A stretch of 10,910 bases of DNA, from the NCBI GenBank assembly GCA_021820165.1, contig JAKADW010000037.1, positions 1-10,910 on the forward strand. Reading direction: 5' to 3'. This document shows positions 1-10,910 of the stretch, piece after piece (position 1 is the stretch's first letter; every line of letters begins with the position of its first letter). The position numbers and the translations under genes were made by a program. The DNA comes from Bacillota bacterium. Lineage in GTDB: Bacteria; Bacillota_E; Sulfobacillia; Sulfobacillales; Sulfobacillaceae. The notes beneath the pieces were generated by a model, which was not told the DNA's origin, did no database searches, and saw nothing but the letters and a program-made list of their open reading frames with translations.

Positions 1-177
1 GCGCGGGGCGTCCACATGGGTGCCGGCATGCTCTCCCATAATCAGTTGCCCGTGCGCCGAGTGGTCCCCCTCCTCCAACTGGTTCCACGGCATGCGGAAG
101 TATTGCGCATGGGTGGGAAAGTAGGGCTGGCCTTGCAAAAGCCGATGGCTCAGGTCGATTAGTGTTCCGCTCATCAT
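1..177 (-). CDS. Cyclase / kynurenine-formamidase-like hydrolase, N-terminal part (runs off the window)
   Basis: Only the first 59 residues are inside the window; the gene continues past base 1. The fragment contains the family signature H-A-G-T-H-V-D-A-P at residues 50-58, which matches the metal-binding HxGTHxDxP motif of the cyclase/KynB family (PF04199). Those enzymes use a divalent metal to hydrolyse amide, formamide or cyclic ester bonds. The early LIDLSHRL block is also typical. The start overlaps the pxpA stop (ATGA at 177-174). A second ATG follows immediately at 174-172 and sits a more usual 7 bases from a GGTGG sequence, so it may be the true start. Being last in the pxp operon, it probably acts on a substrate or product of the same pathway. 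The substrate cannot be read from this fragment. Confidence 0.85.
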   Translation of the reverse strand, partial: MMSGTLIDLSHRLLQGQPYFPTHAQYFRMPWNQLEEGDHSAHGQLIMGEHAGTHVDAPR

Positions 178-944
178 GATACCACCTGGGCCATGGGGAC
201 CACGTCGATTCCCGCCTCGGCCAGCACTTCTCGAAGACGGGCAACCAATCCAGCGGCACCGGGCGTGTCGCCATGAACGCAGAGGGTGTGAATGGGAAAG
301 TCCAGGCGCGTTCCGTCGACCGCCGTCACCGCTCCATCTTGCACCATGCGAACCGCACGCTCGACCACCCGCTCCGGGTCCGTAATGACGGCGCCCGGAT
401 TCCGTCGGGATACCAGCGTGGCGTCAGGATTATATTCACGGTCGGCAAACGCTTCATAGCACACCGTCATGCCCCGGGATTCCGCCGACCGCGCCAATTC
501 TCCGCCGTAGGCGACCACGATCAGCCCCGGATCGAAATCGAAGATTCCAGCAATGATCGCATCGGCCAACTCCCGATCATGCATGGCCAGATTGTTCAAC
601 TGGCCATGCGGCTTCACATGCTGCAAAGGGACGCCAAATCTTCGGCAAAACCCAGCTAAGGCACCGATTTGGTAAAGGACGTCGGTGCGTGCTTCCTCGA
701 CTGTGACGTCAAGGTTTCGCCGCCCAAAGCCTACCAAGTCCGGAAACCCCGGGTGGGCACCCACCGCTACCCCTAGCTCCTGGGCAAGAGCCACCGTGCG
801 CGCCATGGTTCTGGGGTCCCCACCATGAAAACCGCAAGCCACATTGGCGGAGGATATATAGCGGAGGACATTTTCGTCGTCACCCATGCGCCAAGCCCCA
901 AAACTCTCCCCCATGTCGCAGTTCAGATCAATTTTCCGTGTCAT
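174..944 (-). CDS. pxpA: 5-oxoprolinase subunit A-like protein (LamB/YcsF family)
   Basis: A full-length 256-residue LamB/YcsF protein. With PxpB and PxpC, PxpA forms the ATP-dependent 5-oxoprolinase that opens pyroglutamate to glutamate in the cytoplasm. Family blocks are intact: DLNCDMGESFG (residues 6-16), SANVACGFHGGDP (32-44), GAHPGFPDLVGFGRR (62-76), VKPHG (110-114) and the late FADREYNPD...SRRNPGAVI region (166-187). Where many PxpA proteins have HGALYN, this one has HGQLNN (113-118); as far as I recall, LNN variants mark a separate subgroup, so the exact substrate may not be 5-oxoproline. The start overlaps the end of pxpC by 17 bases and is preceded by GGAAAGGGG. The stop overlaps the next gene, so translation is probably coupled. 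The name LamB here has nothing to do with maltoporin. Confidence 0.93.
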   Translation of the reverse strand: MTRKIDLNCDMGESFGAWRMGDDENVLRYISSANVACGFHGGDPRTMARTVALAQELGVAVGAHPGFPDLVGFGRRNLDVTVEEARTDVLYQIGALAGFCRRFGVPLQHVKPHGQLNNLAMHDRELADAIIAGIFDFDPGLIVVAYGGELARSAESRGMTVCYEAFADREYNPDATLVSRRNPGAVITDPERVVERAVRMVQDGAVTAVDGTRLDFPIHTLCVHGDTPGAAGLVARLREVLAEAGIDVVPMAQVVS

Positions 945-2169
945 CTTTATTCCCCTTTCCTGGCTGGTCTAAGGCGATTACAACCAGCGCCGCCCCTTCT
1001 TGCACCTCTTGCCCGTCGGTGAACCGAATCTCCAGCACCGTACCGGATCCCGGGCTGAGGAGATCCGAAAACGTCTTCATCACTTCCAACACGGCCAACG
1101 ATTGCCCCTCCGTCACCCTGTCACCAACGTGCACCAATGGGTGATCCCCCGGGTGGGTCCCGCGATAGGCGAGTGCCCATGATGGCGACTGCACCCAAAC
1201 CGTTCCCGGGATGGCAGACGAGCCCGAGGGCGGACGACGGTCCGCCGGATAGAGTGGCAGGGATAGCATCGAGCGTTCGGCGGCCATAGCCCGTTCGGCT
1301 TCGGCCAGATCCACGAGCTGGAATTGAACCCGCTCGCCCGGCTTTAGTTGCGCCAGCCGCGGCCAGTCAGCCCGGATGACATGGGCGAGCGTCGGATAGC
1401 CGCCGATGCTGCCACGCGATTTCATGAGAACCAAGAGTTCGCCGCTGGGCGGCACCTCAATGGCGCCAATCGCCATCCCTTCCGATAGGCTGGCGCTAGC
1501 CATGGGCGCATCAGTCACCGCGTCGCCTTCAAGCCGGAGACCCACGCGATCGGAGTGGGTGCTGACCCGAAACTGGCCAGAAACCAGACGCTCTAACGCG
1601 TCGTGGGGAAAGCGCTCCACCCGAACCCCGGGTAATACGCGAATGACAGGGCCTAGTTGCAGCGTATCCAGGGGTGCGGCCCAGGCCGCGTTTGCGGCTC
1701 CCCCGGAAAAGGTGAGTCGGTCGCCGACTTTAAGGGCGCGCCCACCGATGCCACCGAATTTCGCCACCAAGTCGGTCGATTGACTTCCGAAGATCCTGTC
1801 AGCTCCAAGCTCACCGGCCAGTGCCAAGTAGGCACGGGCCCCACGCTTGGCTCCGCTAAAGCGGATCTCATCGCCGGCGCCGAGCCAGCGGCTCTCACCC
1901 GGCAGCCACTCTTCCCCGTTTACCAGCGCTCCCAAGTCAGCGCCAGCAAGTGCCGCCCATCCTTCTTCTTCAACGGTTAGGACGGGTCCCAACAACGTGA
2001 TTTCCAACAAGGCTCTATCCAGAGGGTTTCCTACCAACCGATTAGCCCAAGCCGCCGCCCAGTCGTCGAGCCACCCCCCAACCATCACTCCGAGATGCTC
2101 GTATCCCTTTCGCCCGGCATCCTGCACGGTCGTTAACAGCCCCGGGCGGGCGACGCTAATAACTCCCAT
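928..2169 (-). CDS. pxpC: PxpC/KipA-type carboxyltransferase-family subunit fused to a C-terminal biotinyl-carrier domain
   Basis: Residues 1 to about 300 are a complete CT_A_B (KipA/PxpC) domain: RPGLLTTVQDAGRKGYEHLG near the start, AALAGADLGALVNG (72-85), SDRVGLRLEG (206-215), VPPSGELLVLMKSRGSIGGYP (239-259) and a closing HVIRADWPRLAQLKPGERVQF block. PxpC proteins usually end there, at roughly 310-340 residues. This one continues through a Pro/Ser-rich linker (about 305-325) into an 80-residue domain, about 326-400, that looks like a biotin carboxyl carrier. It has VHVGDRVTEGQSLAVLEVMKTF, a SPGSGTV turn and DGQEVQEGAALVVI. K365 in E-V-M-K would be the biotinylated lysine. Yeast-type urea carboxylase also joins CT_A_B, CT_C_D and biotinyl domains, but no biotin carboxylase is visible here. 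ATG at 2169 follows GGGAGGTGA at good spacing, and the gene overlaps pxpB by 14 bases. Confidence 0.92.
   Translation of the reverse strand: MGVISVARPGLLTTVQDAGRKGYEHLGVMVGGWLDDWAAAWANRLVGNPLDRALLEITLLGPVLTVEEEGWAALAGADLGALVNGEEWLPGESRWLGAGDEIRFSGAKRGARAYLALAGELGADRIFGSQSTDLVAKFGGIGGRALKVGDRLTFSGGAANAAWAAPLDTLQLGPVIRVLPGVRVERFPHDALERLVSGQFRVSTHSDRVGLRLEGDAVTDAPMASASLSEGMAIGAIEVPPSGELLVLMKSRGSIGGYPTLAHVIRADWPRLAQLKPGERVQFQLVDLAEAERAMAAERSMLSLPLYPADRRPPSGSSAIPGTVWVQSPSWALAYRGTHPGDHPLVHVGDRVTEGQSLAVLEVMKTFSDLLSPGSGTVLEIRFTDGQEVQEGAALVVIALDQPGKGNKDDTEN
1001..1192 (-). other. Biotinyl/lipoyl-attachment domain within the PxpC fusion
   Basis: This is the coding segment for residues about 326-389 and adjoining sequence of the PxpC-like protein. 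It shows the hammerhead-type arrangement of biotin carriers: a glycine-aspartate turn (VGDRV, 348-352), the attachment loop E362-V-M-K365-T-F, then a mirror-image half beginning SPGSGTV and ending DGQEV. The lysine sits centrally, as needed for biotin protein ligase. EVMK in place of the commoner EAMK is, from memory, also seen in carrier proteins encoded beside pxp genes. There is no frameshift or spare start codon with a ribosome site at the junction, so it looks like a true fusion and not two genes. Confidence 0.8.
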
Positions 2170-2887
2170 CGGTCACCTCCCGGATTACCCATTCTCCCTG
2201 GACCGATATTTCTGCCAAGTGGCGATACTCCTCTGCATCAATGGGGCGAAAGCAGAGGAAGTCTCCGGGCGCGTACAGCACGGGCGGTTCACGATCCCGA
2301 TAGAAGAGGCGTGCGGGAGTCCGTCCAATCAGATGCCAACCCCCGGGACTTTCGCTCGGGTATACGCCCGTCTGAAAGCCGGCAATAGCCACCGTTCCAG
2401 GAGGCACCTGGGTTCTCGGCGAAGCGCGCCGGGGTAATCTCAGCGACTCCGGCAAGAGTCCCGCCAGAGGAAACCCCGGCGAGAACCCGAGGCAGTAGAT
2501 TTGGTAGCGGTGACGCACATGCTCGGCGATCAAATCTTCAGGCGCTAACGCTAACTTGGCGGCCACTTCGTCGAAGTCCAGGCCAAATTCTCCCCCGTAG
2601 GCCGTGGGGATTTCGAAGCATCGCGGCTTCTCCGCCAGGTCATCAATCTCAAGCGTTAGAAGACGTTCTTTAAGCGCCATGGCTCCAATCGTTCCGGGAT
2701 CAAACTCCACCAAGAGCGTCGTGTAAGCGGGCACGACGCCCCACACGCCAGGAATTGCCGCCTGGGTGACCGCCCGAGCCGTTTGGTGTACCGCGCGATT
2801 AGTCTTTGGATCAGGCATATCGCCAAATTCCATCAATAACGCCGCATCGCCCGCGAACCGCACCTCTGGGGAACGAGTCAAGTGCAT
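2156..2887 (-). CDS. pxpB: 5-oxoprolinase subunit B-like protein (KipI/CT_C_D family)
   Basis: A full-length 243-residue KipI-family protein, the usual partner of PxpC in the 5-oxoprolinase complex and the counterpart of the CT_C_D half of urea carboxylase. Visible motifs in order: RFAGDAALLMEFG (10-22), IPTAYGGEFGLDFDEVA (93-109), YCLGFSPGFP (131-140), SPRTQVPPGTVAIAG (156-170) and QTGVYPSESPGGWHLIGRTP (172-191). All are well conserved, so the domain looks functional. In Bacillus subtilis, KipI was first described as an inhibitor of KinA, but context here favours the metabolic role. The gene begins 8 bases after the MFS stop. The ATG at 2887 lies only one base from its GGAGG, whereas TTG at 2881 is seven bases away, so TTG is the likelier start (241 residues). 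Confidence 0.93.
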   Translation of the reverse strand: MHLTRSPEVRFAGDAALLMEFGDMPDPKTNRAVHQTARAVTQAAIPGVWGVVPAYTTLLVEFDPGTIGAMALKERLLTLEIDDLAEKPRCFEIPTAYGGEFGLDFDEVAAKLALAPEDLIAEHVRHRYQIYCLGFSPGFPLAGLLPESLRLPRRASPRTQVPPGTVAIAGFQTGVYPSESPGGWHLIGRTPARLFYRDREPPVLYAPGDFLCFRPIDAEEYRHLAEISVQGEWVIREVTDGSY

Positions 2888-2888
2888 G

Positions 2889-2896
2889 CCTCCTTT
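2889..2896 (-). promoter_or_regulatory. Ribosome binding site that favours a TTG start for pxpB
   Basis: The minus strand reads AAAGGAGG-C-ATG-CAC-TTG. The Shine-Dalgarno core ends one base before the ATG, which is too close for normal initiation, and seven bases before the TTG at 2881-2879, which is ideal. This overlaps the last bases of the MFS gene, so pxpB translation is probably coupled to it. Confidence 0.6.
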
Positions 2897-4137
2897 TATT
2901 GAGCCTTTTCCAACGATATCCCGCGGGTCTCGGGGAGGAAAATCAGCGCGATCAGGCAGAGAAGATAGGCGGCTGGTCCAAAAATCGAGATGCCTCCCGA
3001 AAGTCCATAGTGAATCGCCAACACTCCCACGAGGGCGGGGGCAAAACCGGCCACTCCCCGACCAAAGTTATAGGTAAAACCCTGACCCGCCCCGCGCGAT
3101 TCCGTCGGATACAATTCCGCCAGAAACGGCCCAAACCCGCTGAAAATGCCCGATGCAAAAAATCCTAAGGGAAAGCTCAACATCAGCATCAGAGAGTTCG
3201 AAATGGCGAAATGCGTATATACCAGTATGATAAGCCCGCTAAAGACGGCGTAAAAGACAAAAGTGAGTTTTCGACCAATCCAATCATTAATGATCCCGGA
3301 TAGCACATAGCCTACGAAGGAACCCACGATGACCACAAATAGGTACCCGCCTGACCCCACCACCGATAAGTGCCGGTCCGTTTTGAGGTAGGTAGGAAGC
3401 CAGGTGAAGATGGCATAGTATCCCGACTGGGCGCCAACGGCCAACAGGGCCGCAAAGCTCGTCTTCTTAAGAAGCCCTCGGGAAAACAGGTGAAAAAACG
3501 AGACCGATGACATTTTATCCCGACGCGTCTCTTGCTGGGCCCACAGGGGTGGCTCCTTCACACGCCGAAGCACGTAAATGCTTAATAGAGCTGGCAGAAG
3601 GCCAATCCAGAACATTAGCCGCCATCCCATTGCGCCAGCACGAGGAAGGATAATCAACGACGCAATCACCGCTAAGGCCCAGCCAAACGCCCAGGCTCCC
3701 TGCACGAGCCCGAGCACCCGGCCTCGCACCTCCCCGCGCACCGTCTCCGCAATCAGCACTGCACCGACCGCCCACTCCCCGCCGAATCCCAGCCCCTCGA
3801 GTCCACGAAACACCAGCAATGCGGGATAGGACGTGGCAAGACCACTGAGTGCCGTAAATACCGAGTAAATGAGAACGGCCAGCGCCAAAGTGCGGGCTCG
3901 GCCCATCCGATCCGCCATGGTGCCGGCAAGGATCCCTCCCAAGGCGGAGAGGATCAAGGTGGTCGTGCCGAGGAGGCCACCAGCCGCATCGCTCAGGTGA
4001 AAGGCGCGGATGATGGCGCTCAGCACCAGGGCGTACATCATATAATCAAATCCGTCCAGACCCCACCCGAAAAATGTCGCCCAAAAGGTCGGCCGCTCGT
4101 CGGGAGTGAGGGGAAGGATACCCGCATTTTCTGCCAT
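2896..4137 (-). CDS. MFS permease, metabolite/organic-acid:proton symporter type
   Basis: A 413-residue major facilitator transporter of about 12 membrane helices, first gene of the pxp operon. TM1 carries WGLDGFDYMMY (residues 25-35), the D-G-F-D pattern typical of aromatic-acid and sialic-acid-type proton symporters. The loop 2-3 signature is GTMADRMGRAR (72-82), and its counterpart in the second half is GIINDWIGRK (281-290). RGLEGLGFGGEW (111-122) lies in TM4, ELYPTESRGAG (341-351) precedes TM11, and LPETRG (401-406) closes the last helix. Strong SD GGGAGGT precedes ATG 4137. The cargo cannot be deduced from sequence alone. Operon position suggests it imports the substrate of the PxpABC-like enzyme, such as pyroglutamate, another lactam or a carboxylated amide. 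Confidence 0.9.
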   Translation of the reverse strand: MAENAGILPLTPDERPTFWATFFGWGLDGFDYMMYALVLSAIIRAFHLSDAAGGLLGTTTLILSALGGILAGTMADRMGRARTLALAVLIYSVFTALSGLATSYPALLVFRGLEGLGFGGEWAVGAVLIAETVRGEVRGRVLGLVQGAWAFGWALAVIASLIILPRAGAMGWRLMFWIGLLPALLSIYVLRRVKEPPLWAQQETRRDKMSSVSFFHLFSRGLLKKTSFAALLAVGAQSGYYAIFTWLPTYLKTDRHLSVVGSGGYLFVVIVGSFVGYVLSGIINDWIGRKLTFVFYAVFSGLIILVYTHFAISNSLMLMLSFPLGFFASGIFSGFGPFLAELYPTESRGAGQGFTYNFGRGVAGFAPALVGVLAIHYGLSGGISIFGPAAYLLCLIALIFLPETRGISLEKAQ

Positions 4138-4181
4138 TGCTACCTCCCTTGCTAAATATCATCGCCAGATTCGTTCGCTAG

Positions 4182-4212
4182 ACTCTATGCCCTGAACGGA
4201 CGGCTATGTCAA
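4182..4212 (-). promoter_or_regulatory. Candidate sigma-A promoter for the MFS-pxp operon
   Basis: The minus strand has a perfect TTGACA at 4212-4207 and TAGAGT at 4187-4182, separated by 19 bases, about 45 bases upstream of the MFS start. The -35 is ideal, but the spacer is 1-2 bases long and the -10 matches 4 of 6. It is the best candidate in the short divergent region. Confidence 0.4.
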
Positions 4213-4246
4213 CCAATCTAGTCCCGTAGCGCCCCGCGGCAAACCT

Positions 4247-4256
4247 CAAGCGCTTG
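4247..4256. promoter_or_regulatory. Palindrome CAAGCGCTTG in the divergent promoter region
   Basis: A perfect 10-base palindrome lies between the two divergent genes, upstream of the candidate promoter for the pxp operon and about 63 bases before the oxidoreductase start. It could be a regulator half-site or operator. No regulator gene is encoded in the window, so this is only a candidate. Confidence 0.2.
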
Positions 4257-4305
4257 GCGCACATCTCTGTCTAAATTCCATATCCTGGAGAAAGGCATTC
4301 CCCAC

Positions 4306-4313
4306 AAGGAGGA
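4306..4313 (+). promoter_or_regulatory. Ribosome binding site of the FAD oxidoreductase
   Basis: AAGGAGGA lies six bases before the ATG at 4320 and fixes that start. It is near-complementary to the 16S rRNA tail, which predicts efficient translation. Confidence 0.75.
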
Positions 4314-4319
4314 CAACGC

Positions 4320-5696
4320 ATGTTTTCGAAAGATACGCTCACGGGACAGGTGGTGGCGCCCTGGGACCCGGGGTACGACCAAGATCGCCTCGATTACAAC
4401 GCGCGCTTCGATCATTTCTATCCCGACTATATTGTCTATTGCCAAGCCCCCGAGGATGTCGGTCGAGCCATACGGTGGGCCCGATGCCACGCCCTGCCCT
4501 TTCGCATTCGTAGTGGAGGCCATAGCTACGAAGCCTACTCGCTCGTCAATCGGGGGCTCATCATCGACGTGAGCGCGTTAAACCGCGTCGCTTGGGACCC
4601 TGATAGCGGTATCGCCACCATTGGTGCCGGGGCCAAGTTGTTAGAGGTATACGAAGCGCTCTGGAATGCTGGCCAAGTGACCATCCCAGGCGGATCATGC
4701 CCCACCGTCGGCATTGCTGGCCGCACATTAGGCGGAGGCTTTGGTCTCATCTCGCGTCAGTTTGGCCTGACAGTGGACGCTTTAGAATCCCTCATGATGT
4801 ACGACGCCCGTGGCTGCCCCGTATCTGTGTCCGACCAGTGCCACCCTGACCTCTTTTGGGCGCTTCGGGGAGCGGGAGCCAATAACTTTGGAGCCGTGAC
4901 GGAATTTCAATTCCGTACTGTCTCGGTTGCCGATCCGGTCACCATTTTCGCGCTCCGCTGGGACTGGTCACGGTTACGAGCGGTGACACGCGGGTTTCAA
5001 CTGTGGTCCGATCCGACGACCCTCGACCCTCGTCTCACCGGGGTATTGACCTTGCCTTCTGACCAACAGCATCGGGTCAGCATCATTGGCGAATTTCTCG
5101 GATACGAGGCGGAACTCACCGAGATTATTGCTCCGTTGACGGCCATTTTGGGACTGGAAACGGCCACCATTACCGCGATGAGTTACATCGACGCGGTGAA
5201 GCACTTCGCCGGGGTAGAGGGACCTCCCGGCATTTGGTTGGCACAAGGGGTCCCCGAGCACGATACCTTTAAGAACACCTCCGCCTATGCGTACGAAATT
5301 TTTCCAGACGGTGCCTTGGACGTCATGCAGGATGCGCTGAGCCATACACCCGGTGCCGCCTGTCTGGTGCAACTGGGGACGTTTGGCGGCGCGATTCGTG
5401 AGGTGCGGCCTGACGCCACCGCCTTTTACCACCGCCGGGCCCGTTCCGAAATGCAATACCAAGCCTATTGGAGCGACCCCTCTGTCGCCGACGCGCACAT
5501 CCGCTGGGTGGAACGGCTCCGGCGGGCGATGAAGCCCTACACGGTGGGGGCTTACGTCAACTATTGCGACAGCAAAATCCGCCGATGGCCCGAAGAATAC
5601 TGGGGCGGTAATCTTGAACGGTTGCTCTCCGTCAAGCGCCGTTGGGACCCCCATCGGGTGTTCCGATATCCTCAAGGGCTAAGCGAGCTTATCTGA
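4320..5696 (+). CDS. FAD-linked oxidase, berberine-bridge-enzyme-like
   Basis: A 458-residue flavoprotein with an N-terminal FAD_binding_4 (PCMH-type) domain, about residues 35-200, and a C-terminal BBE motif. SGGHSYE places H68 and GGSCPTVGIAG places C127 at the two covalent flavin sites, so bicovalent FAD (8-alpha-histidyl, 6-S-cysteinyl) is predicted. TLGGGFG (137-142) and DLFWALRGAGANNFG (177-191) are further hallmarks. The C-terminus has VNYCD (413-417) followed by YWGGNLERLLSVKRRWDPHRVF, the conserved BBE closure. Relatives oxidise sugars, alcohols or secondary metabolites using oxygen. No signal peptide is seen, so it is probably cytoplasmic. It is the only gene on its strand here and is divergent from the pxp operon. 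It resembles Bacillus YgaK/YvdP-type proteins, and its substrate is unknown. Confidence 0.92.
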   Translation: MFSKDTLTGQVVAPWDPGYDQDRLDYNARFDHFYPDYIVYCQAPEDVGRAIRWARCHALPFRIRSGGHSYEAYSLVNRGLIIDVSALNRVAWDPDSGIATIGAGAKLLEVYEALWNAGQVTIPGGSCPTVGIAGRTLGGGFGLISRQFGLTVDALESLMMYDARGCPVSVSDQCHPDLFWALRGAGANNFGAVTEFQFRTVSVADPVTIFALRWDWSRLRAVTRGFQLWSDPTTLDPRLTGVLTLPSDQQHRVSIIGEFLGYEAELTEIIAPLTAILGLETATITAMSYIDAVKHFAGVEGPPGIWLAQGVPEHDTFKNTSAYAYEIFPDGALDVMQDALSHTPGAACLVQLGTFGGAIREVRPDATAFYHRRARSEMQYQAYWSDPSVADAHIRWVERLRRAMKPYTVGAYVNYCDSKIRRWPEEYWGGNLERLLSVKRRWDPHRVFRYPQGLSELI

Positions 5697-5748
5697 TGGG
5701 GCCAAGGGACACGTGTCGGACTGTCTATGCAAACACGGGCACCTTTCC

Positions 5749-5787
5749 ATCACCTCCGGAAAAGGGGCCTTTCCCCTGCCTGGTGAT
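5749..5787 (+). terminator. Stem-loop after the FAD oxidoreductase, possible transcript end
   Basis: ATCACC (5749-5754) pairs with GGTGAT (5782-5787). Inside it, AGGGG (5763-5767) pairs with CCCCT (5773-5777) around a 5-base loop, with small bulges between. It lies about 50 bases after the stop codon. No T-tract follows, so it is not a classic intrinsic terminator; it may instead stabilise or process the 3' end. Confidence 0.3.
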
Positions 5788-5820
5788 CCTTAGCGGGGAG
5801 CCGATTGTTGGACAACCCTT

Positions 5821-5862
5821 GGCCTGAGACTCGTGGCGCGGAATTCGGCGGATCCTCAGGCC
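5821..5862. repeat. 8-base inverted repeat GGCCTGAG...CTCAGGCC
   Basis: Perfect arms at 5821-5828 and 5855-5862 flank a 26-base loop with a central GAATTC. It lies between the oxidoreductase and the decayed PIN gene. It could be a remnant of a small mobile element or a weak terminator, and a chance occurrence is not excluded. Confidence 0.35.
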
Positions 5863-5892
5863 GCCCGTCATCGAGCGCTGGCCAACATCGGC

Positions 5893-6246
5893 TCACATAC
5901 AAAACCACACGCTAAACCGAGCCTCCCCGCGTGGCAGAGTCGATTCGTCGGCCACCATGGCGGCCATCCGCCCCTTTGTCGCAAAGGTTTCAAGGCTCTC
6001 CCGATCGTGTCGTTTGTAAGACGTCGGGCTCCTAAGCCCCGGAAGTACCATGGACAGGCGTGCGGGCAACTCGTTAAGATCAGTAGCAGGGTGAGAACGA
6101 GGTCACTGGCAAGCGTTCCCAGGGCGTCGCAAAACTTGGGATTTGAGATCTCTGAACGCCTTTCTTATTGCTAGTCACGATAAGATCCACGCGATGCTCG
6201 ACGGCCGCCAACATGACATGCCGTCTTTCGTTTGATGTGTCCAAAT
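5893..6246 (-). pseudogene. Decayed PIN-domain (VapC-like) toxin gene
   Basis: Two adjoining reading frames on the minus strand together resemble the C-terminal two thirds of a PIN-domain protein. The first (6246-6083) contains ERRHVMLAAVEHRVDLIVTSNKK, which matches the RHVLAAA...VIVT-N-LKDFP core of PIN ribonucleases, and a later PW...LPVTSF resembling the usual W-I-E-A-x-HPDEF stretch. It ends at TGA 6082-6080. Shifting one base there continues (6081-5893) with DLNELPARL...GLRSPTS...ESLETFATKGRMAAMVAD, which fits the family tail (DLNP...LKNPP...ELL-T---GL---VAAL). The N-terminal half with the first catalytic aspartate is missing, replaced by the promoter of the next gene. A one-base frameshift plus truncation means it is not functional. 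No antitoxin gene is seen. The assignment is by eye only. Confidence 0.55.
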
Positions 6247-6249
6247 GCC

Positions 6250-6278
6250 TTCGGTAAAGCTCCGTTTTGAAGTATAAT
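6250..6278 (+). promoter_or_regulatory. Promoter of the membrane-anchored protein gene
   Basis: A perfect TATAAT stands at 6273-6278, 35 bases before the ATG at 6313. The -35 at 17-base spacing, TTCGGT (6250-6255), is poor, with only the first two bases and little else matching. Expected transcription start is near 6285, giving a short leader with AGGAGGG at 6296-6302. A weak -35 suggests the gene may need an activator or be expressed modestly. Confidence 0.5.
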
Positions 6279-6312
6279 GGCGCCTGATAGCGCTCAGGAG
6301 GGATGATATCGT

Positions 6313-6939
6313 ATGGGACGGGGACGATCGGTGAGAAACGCCATCCTATTGGGACTAGGGCTAGGTGCAACGGTCATTGTCATGATCGGTCTTGAGCGGT
6401 TGTTGCCGCCGGTCGTGCCGTCTCCCGTGGCCGTGGCGGCATTGCACAAGCAACCAATAAGAAAGTCCGTTCGTCCGCAGAGCACCCCGAAGGTGTCCCC
6501 TTCGGAGCCCAAGCCTAATGCAGCGGGCCTGATTCCCATATCCTATGGAGGGTATCTAGCTCAGATCCGGCAGATGGGCAAGCAAATGGGGCTTCGGGTC
6601 TGGCTGGCCCGGTACGGTGTACCTCCGGTAGTCTTCCAGGAAAGTTACCGCGAGGGCTCCCAATTAGACCTTCTGTACAGCAATATGATCGTCATCGAGT
6701 CGCAAAAAGTGTTGCGGAACACGTATCGGCCTGCCTCCATTGTTGGGGCGACGCTCTCTAATGGAACTCCAGCTCAGTGGCAGTGGATTCCCGGAGTTGG
6801 GGGTCCAAGCCATCGCCTGATGTTTAAGCTCGGCAGGACATACATTCGTCTTGAGATGGAACCAACGCCGTCCAAGAATGCCTTGCAAACCGCCGTATCA
6901 ATCGCCAGTGCCTTTTCATCAACGACCGCACTCGGGTGA
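6313..6939 (+). CDS. Membrane-anchored protein of unknown function
   Basis: I do not recognise this 208-residue protein with confidence. It starts with a basic stretch (MGRGRSVRN), then one hydrophobic segment at about 10-31, with no lipobox cysteine, so an uncleaved anchor with the rest outside the membrane is likely. A Pro/Ser/Lys-rich linker (about 32-70) leads to a compact domain (about 76-205) with alternating strands: LDLLYSNMIVIES (118-130), VGATLSNGTPAQWQWIPG (144-161) and LMFKLGRTYIRLEME (169-183), then a helix (SKNALQTAVSIASAF). The pattern of a substrate-like strand pair, a TYIRL strand and a final helix resembles DUF4367-type extracytoplasmic domains found on anti-sigma-like or sporulation-linked anchors, but that is tentative. 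SD AGGAGGG is 10 bases upstream. It is monocistronic, with no sigma factor gene nearby. Confidence 0.72.
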   Translation: MGRGRSVRNAILLGLGLGATVIVMIGLERLLPPVVPSPVAVAALHKQPIRKSVRPQSTPKVSPSEPKPNAAGLIPISYGGYLAQIRQMGKQMGLRVWLARYGVPPVVFQESYREGSQLDLLYSNMIVIESQKVLRNTYRPASIVGATLSNGTPAQWQWIPGVGGPSHRLMFKLGRTYIRLEMEPTPSKNALQTAVSIASAFSSTTALG

Positions 6940-7103
6940 TTAGCGCGAGTTCCATGCCTAATGATGGCACGCCGCTGCCTGCCCTTTGAGCGATACCAGC
7001 AATCGGCCAATCGTCGGGCACGATGACTATCGGATCCCAGGGCTAGGCCGACTTTCCGACTCGCATACCGTCTACCTGGGGCTCAAACTTAAGAAAGTGC
7101 AAC

Positions 7104-7128
7104 AGCCCCCCGCGAATCACGGAGGGCT
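7104..7128 (-). terminator. Hairpin terminator between convergent genes
   Basis: On the minus strand AGCCCTCCG (7128-7120) pairs with CGGGGGGCT (7112-7104), nine pairs with one G-T wobble around a 7-base loop. It begins 17 bases after the glutaryl-CoA dehydrogenase stop. The tail GTTGCACTTTCTT is only moderately T-rich. On the plus strand the hairpin is followed by a stretch containing CTCTTTT, so it may also stop transcripts of the 6313 gene. Confidence 0.6.
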
Positions 7129-7145
7129 TCCCTTGGCTCTTTTAG

Positions 7146-8321
7146 CTAAAACGCGTTTTCCCCTAAAATATCGCGTCCGATAATGAGGGTGTGAACCTCA
7201 TAGGTGCCCTCGTAGGTGTCGACCGTCTCCAGATTGGCCGCGTGGCGCATAGGAACGTAATCCACACTGATGCCGTTTCCACCCAAAAGCTCGCGCGCCA
7301 TGCGCGCGACCTCTAAGGCGCTTCGCGCATTGTTACGCTTAGCCAACGACACTTGTGGATAGCGCAGTGCCCCCGATTCATAGAGCCGGCCTAGTTGGAG
7401 CGCCTTCAACTGCATGTCCACGACTCGCGACAACATATCAACAATTCGCTCCTGTACCATTTGGGTGGCCGCGATTGGGCGACCGAAGGCCATCCGAGTT
7501 TTCGTGTAGTCCGCCGACTCGTGCAGACAGTCCAGCGCTGCTCCCACCGCTCCGAAGGCAATGCCAAATCGTGCCTGGGTCAGACAGCTTAAGGGCGATC
7601 CAAGCCCTTTCGATGTAGGTAATAGCGCCTCTTCACTCAATTCAACCTGATCGAAATAGAGCTCGGAGGTCACCGACATGCGCATCGAGGCTTTGGTATG
7701 AATTTCTCGGGCCGTGAACCCTTCAGCATCGGTGGGCACGATGAACCCACGAATGATGCCCGATTCATCCTTCGCCCAGACCACTGCAATCTCTGCCAAA
7801 TTGCCGTTGGTGATCCAGCGTTTCGCCCCATCCAGCACGTACCCGGACGGGGTTTTCTTTACGTGAGTCCGCATGGCAGCCGGATCCGATCCCGCGTCGG
7901 GTTCGGTCAAACCAAAGCACCCGATGATTTCGCCCCGGGCCATTTTGGGAAGATAGCGTTTCTTTTGTTCTTCGCTGCCGTAGCGGTAAATGGCGTACAT
8001 CGCGAGCCCACTTTGGACGGAGGCAAACGATCGAAGGCCTGAGTCACCCCGTTCCAACTCCTGCATCATGAGTCCATATCCTATCCCGCTAAGTCCCGAA
8101 CCGCCATACTCCTCCGGCAATGTCGGGCCAAACACCCCCAGCTCGCCCAACTTGGGAATGAGATGGGTCGGGAACACCCCCTCTTGCCACCACTTTCCTG
8201 CATTCGGACGAACTTCCTGGTCGACAAAGCGTCGTACGGCGTCTCGAACCTGCATTTCCTCGCGTGACAGTAGCTGGTCAAGCCCGTAGAAATCATCAAT
8301 TAAAGCCCACATATCAGTCAC
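7146..8321 (-). CDS. gcdH: Glutaryl-CoA dehydrogenase (acyl-CoA dehydrogenase family)
   Basis: A full-length 391-residue acyl-CoA dehydrogenase closely resembling GcdH, which oxidises and decarboxylates glutaryl-CoA to crotonyl-CoA and CO2, passing electrons to ETF. Diagnostic residues are present. E89 and R97 (ELERGDSGLRS) correspond to human Glu87 and Arg94, the latter binding the gamma-carboxylate. Y370 and catalytic base E371 lie in TYEGT, corresponding to Tyr369 and Glu370. This set fits the decarboxylating type. FGLTEPDAGSDP (136-147), WITNGN and ELLGGNGIS are flavin/substrate-binding blocks shared with GcdH, as is the RNN in LAKRNNARSALEVAR. The start is GTG at 8321 behind AGGGAG, overlapping the CoA-transferase by 8 bases; ATG at codon 4 is an alternative. 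Last gene of its operon, followed by a hairpin. Confidence 0.93.
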   Translation of the reverse strand: MTDMWALIDDFYGLDQLLSREEMQVRDAVRRFVDQEVRPNAGKWWQEGVFPTHLIPKLGELGVFGPTLPEEYGGSGLSGIGYGLMMQELERGDSGLRSFASVQSGLAMYAIYRYGSEEQKKRYLPKMARGEIIGCFGLTEPDAGSDPAAMRTHVKKTPSGYVLDGAKRWITNGNLAEIAVVWAKDESGIIRGFIVPTDAEGFTAREIHTKASMRMSVTSELYFDQVELSEEALLPTSKGLGSPLSCLTQARFGIAFGAVGAALDCLHESADYTKTRMAFGRPIAATQMVQERIVDMLSRVVDMQLKALQLGRLYESGALRYPQVSLAKRNNARSALEVARMARELLGGNGISVDYVPMRHAANLETVDTYEGTYEVHTLIIGRDILGENAF

Positions 8322-9495
8322 GGTCTACTCCCTCTCCTCGACGTCGGCGAATGCTGGCCACTAAGGCCAAAATCTCGTCGCGATGCTGATCAACTTGGGG
8401 CGGCGCGGATCGCGCCTCGGCCTCACTCTGGTGAAACGTCCAGGGCAAACGCACGGCCGGATACCGGCCCACGGCCGGATGCTCCACCTCGACTAAAACC
8501 TGGTGACCTTGGGCCTTGGCATACTCGACGGCTTGAGGAATGGTGCGCACTGGGCCCGCGGGCACGCCGGCCTCCTCCAACCGTGACACCCACCAGGGAG
8601 TCCTTCGGGTGGTAAGCACGTCTTCTAATTGGGCAATCAGGATGGTGCGATGAGCCACTCGATCCGGGTTGGTGCGAAAGCGCGGATCCTCCGCCCATTC
8701 AGGATGTCCCAGTACCTGGCACAATGCCTGAAATTGATGGTCATTACCCACGCCCAGCGCCATCCACCCGTCAGCCGTGCGCACCGTCTGATACGGGGCC
8801 AGGGATGCATGAGCATTTCCGTAGCGTCCGGGCGCCTTACCCGTGGACAGGTAGCTTTGCATCACGTTCGCCAACCCGGCCAACTGCGCTCCCCAAAGTG
8901 AAACCTCCAAGTGATCGCCTTGGCCCGTACGCTCCCGCCGATATAACGCGGCGACAATGCCGCTTAAGAGAAACAGGCCCGCCGTGACATCACTGACCGC
9001 CACCCCGACCTTATACGGCTCCCCATCAGGCGGTCCGGTGATCGACATAAGCCCTGAACCGGCCTGAATGACGAAATCGTAACCAGGATTGTCATCAGGA
9101 ACCGGGTAGCCGCGAAGACTGGCGGTAATGAGCCGCGGCTTAGCCTTACGCAGATCATCCAGGCCTAATTGAAAGCGCCCCAGGGTCCCCGGCTTGAAAT
9201 TCTCCACGACTACGTCTGCCCAGCCGAGCGCCAAGTCTCGCACCCGCGATTGGTCCTCAGGCTTTCGCAGATCTAAGGCGATGGAGCGTTTGTTGCGATT
9301 CGTGGACAAAAAATAGGTCGATTCGCCCTGAACAAACGGCGGACCCCATTGTCGGGTTTCATCGCCGTCGGGACGTCGTTCCACCTTAATCACGTCCGCA
9401 CCTAGCTCACCCAGAGCCATCGTGGCATAAGGAGCCGCCAACACCCGGGAGAGATCCAGCACTTGAACACCCGTCAGGGGTCCGTCAGTAGTCAC
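8314..9495 (-). CDS. Class III (CaiB/FRC family) CoA-transferase, probably glutarate CoA-transferase
   Basis: A 393-residue CaiB/BaiF family protein. LTGVQVLDLSRVLAAPYATM (7-26), ELGADVIKVERRPDGDETR (30-48), NRNKRSIALDL (67-77), VENFKPGTLGR (97-107) and PGYDFVIQA (137-145) are standard. D169 in VAVSDVTAG matches the catalytic aspartate of formyl-CoA transferase (Asp169), which forms a covalent acyl anhydride. The segment before PGYDF (ASLRGYPVPDDN) lacks the common S-G-F-G-Q-T-G-P, an oddity that may bear on substrate fit. Placed between an omega-aminotransferase and glutaryl-CoA dehydrogenase, it most likely moves CoA from succinyl-CoA or a similar donor to glutarate, like mammalian SUGCT. 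Start is GTG at 9495; AAGGTGG lies only one base before it, and an in-frame TAA (the aminotransferase stop) lies 15 bases upstream, suggesting coupled re-initiation. Confidence 0.88.
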   Translation of the reverse strand: MTTDGPLTGVQVLDLSRVLAAPYATMALGELGADVIKVERRPDGDETRQWGPPFVQGESTYFLSTNRNKRSIALDLRKPEDQSRVRDLALGWADVVVENFKPGTLGRFQLGLDDLRKAKPRLITASLRGYPVPDDNPGYDFVIQAGSGLMSITGPPDGEPYKVGVAVSDVTAGLFLLSGIVAALYRRERTGQGDHLEVSLWGAQLAGLANVMQSYLSTGKAPGRYGNAHASLAPYQTVRTADGWMALGVGNDHQFQALCQVLGHPEWAEDPRFRTNPDRVAHRTILIAQLEDVLTTRRTPWWVSRLEEAGVPAGPVRTIPQAVEYAKAQGHQVLVEVEHPAVGRYPAVRLPWTFHQSEAEARSAPPQVDQHRDEILALVASIRRRRGEGVDRD

Positions 9496-9501
9496 GCCAC
9501 C

Positions 9502-9524
9502 TTGGAGGGCTTAACGCCCTCCAA
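9502..9524 (-). promoter_or_regulatory. Perfect intercistronic hairpin enclosing the aminotransferase stop codon
   Basis: TTGGAGGGC and GCCCTCCAA form a perfect 9-base stem with the 5-base loop GTTAA (minus strand), so the TAA stop lies in the loop. The 3' arm ends in AA, which is the start of the AAGGTGG ribosome site of the CoA-transferase. No T-tract follows, so it is not a terminator. It probably tunes translation coupling or mRNA stability. Confidence 0.5.
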
Positions 9525-10866
9525 CCTCCGCCAACGTGCGCTCAAAAATGTCGAGTGCCTCGTCCAACATGTCCAAGGGCGTGTTGAGAGGGGCCAAAAA
9601 GCGAATCACGTTGCCGTAAATCCCCGACTTCAACATTAAGACACCACGATCAATCATGGTATGCAACACCCGGTTGGTTTCGTCAGCCGCTGGCTCCTTG
9701 GTCTTTGGATCCCGCACCAATTCAATCGCTACCATGGCGCCCAGCCCCCGCACGTCGCCAATCAAGGGGTTCTTTTGCTGCATTGCCTTCAACCGCGTCA
9801 TCAAATGCTCCCCTTGTCGCTTGGCCTGCTCGAGGAGGTTTTCCTGCTCGAATACGTCGAGCACGGCGTTGCCAGCCGACGTTCCGAGCGGGTTTCCGAC
9901 ATAGGTTCCCCCAATCTGCGAATCCTCCGGACCGTCCATGACTTCTGGACGCCCCATCACCCCGGAGAGGGGAATGCCATCGGCGATTGACTTGGCCATC
10001 GCCAGCAGATCCGGCCGAATGCCTGCCTGTTCGGTCGCAAAGAAGGTACCGGTGCGTCCAAACCCCGTCTGTACCTCGTCAACAATCAAGAGGATATTGT
10101 GCTTCTCGGTGAATCGACGAAGCCATGGCAAGAAGCTCGCCGGGGGCACCACGAATCCGCCTTCACCCTGCACGGGCTCGACGATGACGGCCGCCAAGTC
10201 CTCCGGCGCCACCTGCAGCATCAAGGCTTTTTCAATGTTCGCATAGCACTTCTCATCGCACACATGGTTCGGCTCGCCGCCTGAGAACTCGCACCGATAG
10301 GGGTAGGGATAGGGGGCGCGATAGACTTCTGGCGCGTAAGGTCCCATACCCGCCTTGTACGGGTGAACTTTGGAGGTCAGCGTCATGGCCATCAACGTAC
10401 GGCCGTGAAACGCGCGTTCAAAGGTGAGGATCCCCTTCCGCTTGGTGTAGGCCCGGGCAATCTTCACGGCATTTTCTACCGCCTCGGCTCCGGAGTTGAA
10501 GAAGACGGTGGTCGCGGGGCCGCCGCCCGGAAAATGCGCATTTAGCCGCTCAGCCAGCCGTACGTAGCTCTCGTAGGGCAGGTTGGTGAAATCCGTGTGC
10601 AAAAAGCGATCCACCTGCTCGTGCAAAGCCTTTTTCACGAAATCGTGGGTGTGACCGACGTTCAACACCCCCACCCCACCCGTGAGGTCAATAAAGGTGT
10701 TGCCATCCACATCCGTCAGTAAGCTGCCGTGCGCATGATCGACAATCAACGGGGCATAAATCCCCACCGCACGCGGGGTGGCTTTTTTTAGCCGCTCCAG
10801 AATCGGTTTCGATTTCGGACCGGGAATTTGGGTTTTTAGATCGATGTACTTCGTCTTGGTTGCCAT
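9511..10866 (-). CDS. gabT: Class III PLP aminotransferase, 4-aminobutyrate/5-aminovalerate type
   Basis: A 451-residue class III aminotransferase of the GabT/DavT group. These move the terminal amino group of GABA or 5-aminovalerate to 2-oxoglutarate, giving succinate or glutarate semialdehyde. Numbered from the upstream ATG at 10884, visible motifs are SGAEAVENAVKIAR (131-144), AFHGRT (158-163), the cofactor aspartate block IVDEVQTGFGRTG (267-279) with D269 and Q272, and AMAKSIADG with PLP lysine K298. IGGTYVGNPL (around 323-332) is also typical. ATG at 10866 (residue 7) is the better start because AAGGAGGA lies just 4 bases before it, inside the longer frame. A VCDEKC segment (208-213) resembles an insertion found in many bacterial GabT proteins. 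The neighbours favour 5-aminovalerate as a substrate, but GABA is equally possible by sequence. Confidence 0.92.
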   Translation of the reverse strand: MATKTKYIDLKTQIPGPKSKPILERLKKATPRAVGIYAPLIVDHAHGSLLTDVDGNTFIDLTGGVGVLNVGHTHDFVKKALHEQVDRFLHTDFTNLPYESYVRLAERLNAHFPGGGPATTVFFNSGAEAVENAVKIARAYTKRKGILTFERAFHGRTLMAMTLTSKVHPYKAGMGPYAPEVYRAPYPYPYRCEFSGGEPNHVCDEKCYANIEKALMLQVAPEDLAAVIVEPVQGEGGFVVPPASFLPWLRRFTEKHNILLIVDEVQTGFGRTGTFFATEQAGIRPDLLAMAKSIADGIPLSGVMGRPEVMDGPEDSQIGGTYVGNPLGTSAGNAVLDVFEQENLLEQAKRQGEHLMTRLKAMQQKNPLIGDVRGLGAMVAIELVRDPKTKEPAADETNRVLHTMIDRGVLMLKSGIYGNVIRFLAPLNTPLDMLDEALDIFERTLAEVGGR

Positions 10867-10870
10867 GTGA

Positions 10871-10878
10871 TCCTCCTT
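10871..10878 (-). promoter_or_regulatory. Ribosome binding site deciding the gabT start
   Basis: AAGGAGGA followed by TCAC and ATG (10866) is a near-ideal initiation site. It sits inside the frame opened by an ATG at 10884, which has no such site, so the shorter protein is preferred. Confidence 0.75.
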
Positions 10879-10910
10879 ATTCATCTAATCGCCAAACCTA
10901 CGCGTCAATT

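Follow-up and report, generated by a model that had tools for sequence, protein, structure and literature searches.

Does a PxpC-type subunit that carries its own biotin site make the lactam-opening enzyme around it a carboxylase? The question is raised by a gene at positions 928..2169 on the minus strand of a 10,910-nucleotide stretch from a Bacillota bacterium of the Sulfobacillaceae (contig JAKADW010000037.1, positions 1 to 10,910), hereafter the window. Its product consists of a PxpC-type CT_A_B subunit, the carboxyltransferase (CT) part (residues ~1-300), a variable linker (~300-323) and a biotinyl carrier domain (~324-400). A family profile scan gave a CT_A_B/PxpC match of 250 bits followed by a biotinyl domain match of 50.9 bits, with PF00364 above its cut-off. 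The carrier contains an EVMKTF biotinylation-type motif (1069..1086, minus strand; residues 362-367), and its lysine K365 (codon 1075-1077; positions derived by hand from the gene coordinates and residue numbers) is located, as an MK biotin site, at the tip of a hairpin. Structural comparison finds biotin carriers closest to this domain, and family models score it higher with biotin-carrier than with lipoyl families. The original prediction had described a CT_A_B N-terminus of about 300 residues and a biotinyl domain with EVMKTF and K365, and both are there; the domain search that it proposed for the translation returned CT_A_B and PF00364 matches, and the lack of a Biotin_lipoyl match in the C-terminal part, which it had named as the contrary outcome, was not borne out.

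The fusion of CT_A_B/PxpC with a biotinyl domain is real and conserved. In alignment A1, which includes the window, 16 of 22 rows have a lysine at the K365 position. Identity between the window protein and its S. harzensis counterpart is 69% in the CT part, 14% in the linker and 54% in the carrier, and the values against relative P0003 are 87%, 58% and 78%, respectively; the carrier is thus kept while the linker drifts, which argues that it is under selection in the window's branch. The gene overlaps pxpB by 14 nt and pxpA by 17 nt, in an operon with both. The PxpB-type CT_C_D subunit (2156..2887, minus strand) matches PF02682 with 218 bits and TIGR00370 with 169.8 bits, above the cut-off of 145.55, and the PxpA/LamB-YcsF hydrolase subunit (174..944, minus strand) matches PF03746 with 330 bits and the subfamily model NF003814 with 359 bits, above the cut-off of 226.

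The protein differs from two related known systems. From the prokaryotic 5-oxoprolinase PxpABC (YbgIJK / KipI-KipA-YcsF) it differs by the added biotinyl domain and by a score of 209.8 bits against a cut-off of 500 for the PxpC equivalog model NF045499; the looser domain model TIGR00724 accepts it, with 238.2 bits against 230.2. Urea carboxylase (TIGR02712; K. lactis structures 3va7, 5i8i) combines biotin carboxylase (BC), CT and biotin carboxyl carrier protein (BCCP) in one chain, and the window protein reaches 166 bits against its cut-off of 1303.85: here CT is split over two genes, and no BC domain was found in the chain or in any of the nine window proteins scanned. The partners differ as well, being allophanate hydrolase for urea carboxylase and PxpA in the window.

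We tentatively favor, at somewhat less than an even chance, a split urea-carboxylase-like lactam carboxylase in which a shared biotin carboxylase acts in trans on biotinylated K365, and whose product is hydrolyzed by PxpA. Biotin protein ligase would attach biotin to K365, and a biotin carboxylase shared with the acyl-CoA carboxylases of the cell would charge it with CO2, using ATP. The carrier would then swing to the PxpB/PxpC site, where, by homology to urea carboxylase, the carboxyl group could pass to the amide nitrogen or oxygen of the lactam. Finally, as the operon suggests, PxpA would hydrolyze the activated ring to CO2 and an omega-amino acid. A split urea-carboxylase-like enzyme had been predicted for this locus, and it is a reasonable model in view of the real carrier, the intact lysine in the window's branch and five-gene operons elsewhere, alongside the chains of PDB entry 9yx5 (below).

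Those operons came to light partly through a search of plasmids with the 80-aa carrier encoded in a Shinella pxp operon; 186 records matched, and from the 50 listed, nine regions were picked by hand. Seven of these hold PxpA, PxpB, PxpC, carrier and biotin carboxylase together (Azospirillum, Ruegeria, Agrobacterium rubi, Natronorubrum, Rubrobacter, Lactiplantibacillus, R. etli), and two, from Sphingobium and Sulfitobacter, have no pxp genes. Eight further regions were opened from PxpC matches, five of them chosen for a listed carrier, a carboxylase or a long match. All five genes are present in the Shinella, Rhizobium, Burkholderia and Limosilactobacillus regions, the Natrialba region has everything except a biotin carboxylase within the stretch, and no carrier gene was found within the stretch in Azospirillum (a second locus), Deinococcus and Pseudomonas. 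With this sampling, the counts show linkage of carrier, carboxylase and pxp genes in several groups, not its frequency. The dedicated operons (rhizobia, Azospirillum, Ruegeria, Natronorubrum, Rubrobacter, lactobacilli, Burkholderia) resemble the window in clustering PxpA, PxpB, PxpC and a biotin carrier, and their 77-84-aa carriers share EVMK(T/S/N)F with it, while L. plantarum, L. fermentum, R. etli and Burkholderia have longer carriers, which read EAMK. They differ in that the carrier is a separate gene and the carboxylase lies in the cluster, whereas in the window the carrier is part of PxpC, with no carboxylase nearby. In R. etli (L074:6128-6553) and Burkholderia pyrrocinia (L082:6000-6473) the operon has, in addition to the lysine-bearing carrier and the biotin carboxylase, a gene for another carrier-like protein that lacks the lysine; by eye, Sulfitobacter (L076) has a similar carrier pair with no pxp genes.

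A second line of support comes from PDB entry 9yx5, known here by its chain names alone: AccA3 (BC-BCCP), a PxpC homologue (chain V), a PxpB homologue (chain W) and two carboxyltransferases. The PxpB and PxpC homologues are named allophanate hydrolase subunits 1 and 2, and the carboxyltransferase chains are labelled D4 and D5 in sister entries, which we read as AccD4 and AccD5. Three sister entries (9yx1, 9yx2, 9yx4) bear the title of a long-chain acyl-CoA carboxylase complex from M. smegmatis; from these and from 3mml we infer the same organism for 9yx5. The chain names support the idea that PxpBC associates with a biotin carboxylase, the role of that association aside. As in the biotin reading of the window, PxpB and PxpC homologues stand in one entry with a BC-BCCP chain; the carrier, however, is on AccA3, in trans, and in the window it is on PxpC itself. 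A literature search found no paper describing 9yx5. In the available text of one study, MSMEG_0435 is among the proteins with reduced levels in a PII mutant (PMC11001197).

The same search, with most subscription papers outside its reach, returned no description of a biotin-dependent Pxp enzyme and no function for the operons that join carrier, biotin carboxylase and Pxp genes. How PxpBC activates its lactam is unsettled, as far as the accessible parts of the sources go: ATP hydrolysis by co-purified PxpB and PxpC is cited in PMC8453981, and phosphorylation by PxpBC is, according to PMC13274462, assumed. Caprolactamase CapAB resembles Pxp in ATP-driven lactam opening, and its authors' options include carboxyphosphate-mediated and carboxy-lactim mechanisms; the accessible portion of that report describes CapAB as not similar to PxpABC (PMC8453981), and it uses no biotin. 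In the accessible text of PMC3199775, adjacent split urea-carboxyltransferase genes are noted with function unknown, and that of PMC12427679 gives both an extra BCCP and BC and pxpB/pxpC for L. pentosus, without a link between them. A PxpC with its own biotin site, operons with a dedicated biotin carboxylase and 9yx5 together make a carboxylation mechanism directly testable. If it were true, some bacteria would open lactam rings by first adding carbon dioxide, as urea carboxylase does with urea; lactams would join acyl-CoA, pyruvate and urea as substrates of biotin enzymes, and the reading of a widely annotated family would change.

Several results weigh against a biotin-dependent enzyme in the window, beginning with the source of the biotin carboxylase. 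No such gene was found by tblastn in loci L001-L016 or L050-L067, and across 154 genomes of the class none lies within ~160 kb of PxpC where both are on one contig, though many contigs are short (by-eye comparison of listed coordinates; PxpC in 81 genomes at E <= 1e-60, biotin carboxylase in 108 at E <= 1e-100). With no dedicated carboxylase near the operon, the reaction would need one from elsewhere. S. harzensis (G001), the assembly of which may be incomplete, has one biotin-carboxylase match (E <= 1e-100) and two acyl-CoA carboxyltransferase genes (C133, C311) with a carrier-type domain near each; presumably, therefore, it already shares one biotin carboxylase in trans, as the PxpC carrier would need.

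A further point is the fate of the lysine among relatives. A protein search gave 1571 matches among 7998 candidates scored, of which we used the best 120; close relatives are named "5-oxoprolinase/urea amidolyase family protein" or "biotin/lipoyl-containing protein" at source. In a tree of 67 PxpC cores the window's clade comprises 62 rows (window included; support 100/98): just 16 keep the lysine, in 11 it is replaced, in 11 the domain is degenerate and in 24 it is absent. To place the lysine label on the best tree takes 11 changes, six of them forced by supported branches, and the label is weakly clustered, 7 of 500 shuffles being equally tight; the replaced, degenerate and absent labels need 3 (3 forced), 3 (1 forced) and 10 (8 forced) changes. 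A faster tree, built from 80 rows and with additional outgroups, gave a similar picture. Both trees omit P0054 and P0063 (277 and 271 aa), taken as truncated; P0046, P0055 and P0100 are called degenerate by length alone, the domain profile finding nothing convincing in them, and some domain-less rows derive from short metagenome contigs, so that truncation is possible. Within the CT part, no column significantly tracks the lysine (best P 2.4e-4 against a Bonferroni limit of 2.6e-5; low power, with 6 independent pairs), as if the carboxyltransferase half were unaffected by its loss; residue R21 goes in the same direction as the lysine in a mean of 3.7 of the 6 pairs and, in most pairings, never in the opposite one (median P 0.125).

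These losses lend weight to the view that the window encodes an ordinary ATP-dependent PxpABC 5-oxoprolinase, phosphorylating the lactam directly, with the carrier as a fading leftover or a structural or docking module that works without biotin, an explanation that we hold to be a serious one, if on the doubtful side. The lysine is repeatedly lost with the domain retained, and the whole domain is repeatedly absent, with the operon context unchanged: the order PxpB-PxpC-PxpA is kept in loci L001-L008 and L011-L014 in spite of the losses. Behind the domain-less PxpC genes of L006-L009 and L011 no remnant of a carrier above chance was found; pxpB directly precedes and pxpA follows pxpC in L006-L008 and L011, and no PxpA match was found in L009. 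That the domain is gone without remnant and the pxp order kept suggests that biotin is not universally needed in the clade, or that another carrier stands in. Lysine-less rows hold the domain fairly well (mean identity 52%, against 67% in the CT part; 53% and 61% in lysine-bearing rows), which indicates a fold kept without the lysine and drifting somewhat faster. The seven sequences of degenerate group A2 have a similar strand order in a lower-confidence model (pLDDT, the predicted local distance difference test, of 67) and conserved residues of their own. The second, lysine-less carrier-like proteins of the R. etli and Burkholderia operons and the CT columns fit the same view. It accounts less well for the 16 lysine-bearing rows, in which M364 and F367 are invariant too, unlike a decaying site, and the dedicated biotin carboxylase of other PxpABC operons is hard to explain without biotin chemistry.

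The prediction that a carrier on PxpC argues for carboxylation consequently needs qualification: with the lysine repeatedly lost or the domain absent in the clade, and no biotin carboxylase near, the carrier alone is no proof. Its own contrary outcome, a lysine unusable in relatives, applies to some sister lineages and does not extend to the window's branch, where the lysine is intact: P0001-P0004 (the window protein, two near copies of it and its S. harzensis counterpart) all bear it and group with the domain-less, long-branch row P0040. Even with the repeated loss in sisters, a split urea-carboxylase-like lactam carboxylase with a shared biotin carboxylase is a credible candidate. The lysine-bearing, lysine-less and domain-less siblings form a natural comparison series.

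A wider proposal would turn the losses into part of the account, though we consider it rather unlikely. PxpBC would in general be biotin-dependent lactam carboxyltransferases, opening rings by carboxylation followed by PxpA hydrolysis; CO2 would come from a fused carrier (window), a neighboring one (rhizobia, haloarchaea, lactobacilli) or one borrowed from acetyl- or acyl-CoA carboxylase (9yx5, perhaps many carrier-less PxpBC). Lineages that lost the lysine would have exchanged their own carrier for a borrowed one and kept the lysine-less domain as a docking piece. When genomes without the fused domain were examined for a detached carrier, the sole candidate, on contig C46 of G008, was rejected since it does not lie with pxp; its neighbors are acyl-CoA-synthetase-like, biotin carboxylase and pyruvate-carboxylase-like genes (named by eye except for the carboxylase and carrier matches).

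If the enzyme of the window is a lactam carboxylase, its likeliest substrate may be delta-valerolactam, as the neighboring catabolic genes suggest. A class III transaminase of the 4-aminobutyrate--2-oxoglutarate type (9511..10884, minus strand; TIGR00700, 522 bits, above the cut-off of 506.65), a CaiB-type family III CoA-transferase (8314..9495, minus strand) and an acyl-CoA dehydrogenase (7146..8321, minus strand) share the strand of the pxp genes. Among the ten best PDB sequences for the dehydrogenase, nine are named (putative) glutaryl-CoA dehydrogenase and one (4w9u) acyl-CoA dehydrogenase, at 377-484 bits with the remainder at <=255; in alignment it has two active-site stretches in common with human glutaryl-CoA dehydrogenase, which we take to surround the substrate arginine and the catalytic glutamate. 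The closest PDB sequences to the CoA-transferase are 10uh (formyl-coenzyme A transferase) and then 9br6 (succinate--hydroxymethylglutarate CoA-transferase). In S. harzensis (L001) aldehyde dehydrogenase, GabT, CaiB, glutaryl-CoA dehydrogenase, a major facilitator superfamily (MFS) transporter, PxpB, PxpC and PxpA follow one another on one strand. The window thus holds three of the four genes expected of a 5-aminovalerate/glutarate cluster, the aldehyde dehydrogenase being found in S. harzensis L001 only. It is the transaminase, the glutarate-type CoA-transferase and the glutaryl-CoA dehydrogenase on the same strand, with the aldehyde dehydrogenase of the relative, that make delta-valerolactam likeliest; the route would run through 5-aminovalerate, glutarate semialdehyde, glutarate and glutaryl-CoA to crotonyl-CoA. 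Elsewhere, the Ruegeria pxp region has genes for 4-aminobutyrate (GABA) transaminase and succinate-semialdehyde dehydrogenase nearby, and the available part of PMC8016842 describes lamA and lamB of A. nidulans as lactam genes that the regulator of the GABA genes controls.

Against this substrate stand the CoA-transferase, the best NCBIfam model of which, succinate--glutarate CoA-transferase, gives 348 bits, below its specific cut-off of 750, and the rarity of the arrangement: of the 154 genomes of the class, just 2 have the dehydrogenase next to pxp, and it is missing from L002 and L004, both of which bear the lysine. The substrate guess therefore rests on few cases, namely the three clusters of the window, L001 and L015, where the contig begins inside the transaminase. 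This rarity, together with a PxpA that passes the 5-oxoprolinase subfamily cut-off of NF003814, favors a biotin-dependent enzyme acting on 5-oxoproline or another amide, beside which the glutarate genes lie by chance; we regard this as unlikely, because the one-strand gene set is repeated in the window, in L001 and in the part of L015 covered by its contig, and because transaminase, aldehyde dehydrogenase, CoA-transferase and glutaryl-CoA dehydrogenase are the chain that a five-carbon omega-amino acid needs. That the carrier is a lipoyl or other non-biotin domain is highly improbable: PF00364 spans both biotinyl and lipoyl domains, but the MK motif speaks for biotin, and on the family scores and structure matches a lipoyl domain is rejected.

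By the profile of the window-type domain, PxpC-carrier fusions among the best 120 relatives fall into three classes. Besides that of the window, at ~400 aa, there is one of ~480 aa carrying EVMKTY (10 of 120: P0064, P0065, P0066, P0069, P0073, P0076, P0082, P0088, P0093, P0109) and one of 431 aa carrying EAMKM (2 of 120). By eye, the insert before the biotinyl domain in P0064, P0066, P0069 and P0088 resembles the N-terminal part of AccB. The genomic context of the ~480-aa fusions was sought in the phylum of G012, where 1 of 149 genomes matched (E <= 1e-60), over residues 7-307 (the CT part) only. In G015 the PxpC-carrier gene (L015:5483-8700) is in two pieces ~2 kb apart, with a lysine-bearing carrier in the second, and looks insertion-interrupted. 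The PxpC of G140 (L050:8612-9916), in a locus ordered PxpA-PxpB-PxpC, has a carrier domain of 83.7-87 bits against the PRK07051 cut-off of 87, in which Q replaces the lysine (EVMQTF).

Transcription on the minus strand of the window would pass from transaminase, CoA-transferase and acyl-CoA dehydrogenase, which keeps its cluster position in L001 and L015, to an MFS transporter (2896..4137, minus strand), PxpB, PxpC-carrier and PxpA. The transporter lies 8 nt upstream of pxpB, and S. harzensis has an 88% identical gene in this position. Two plus-strand open reading frames separate the dehydrogenase from the transporter, one for a protein with flavin adenine dinucleotide (FAD)-binding and berberine-bridge domains (4320-5696) and one of 208 aa that has no family match (6313-6939); in S. 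harzensis the two flanking genes adjoin without them. In S. harzensis pxpA is directly followed by a cyclase/kynurenine-formamidase-like gene (PF04199; L001:11993-12679), perhaps part of the pathway; the window stops short of the equivalent position.

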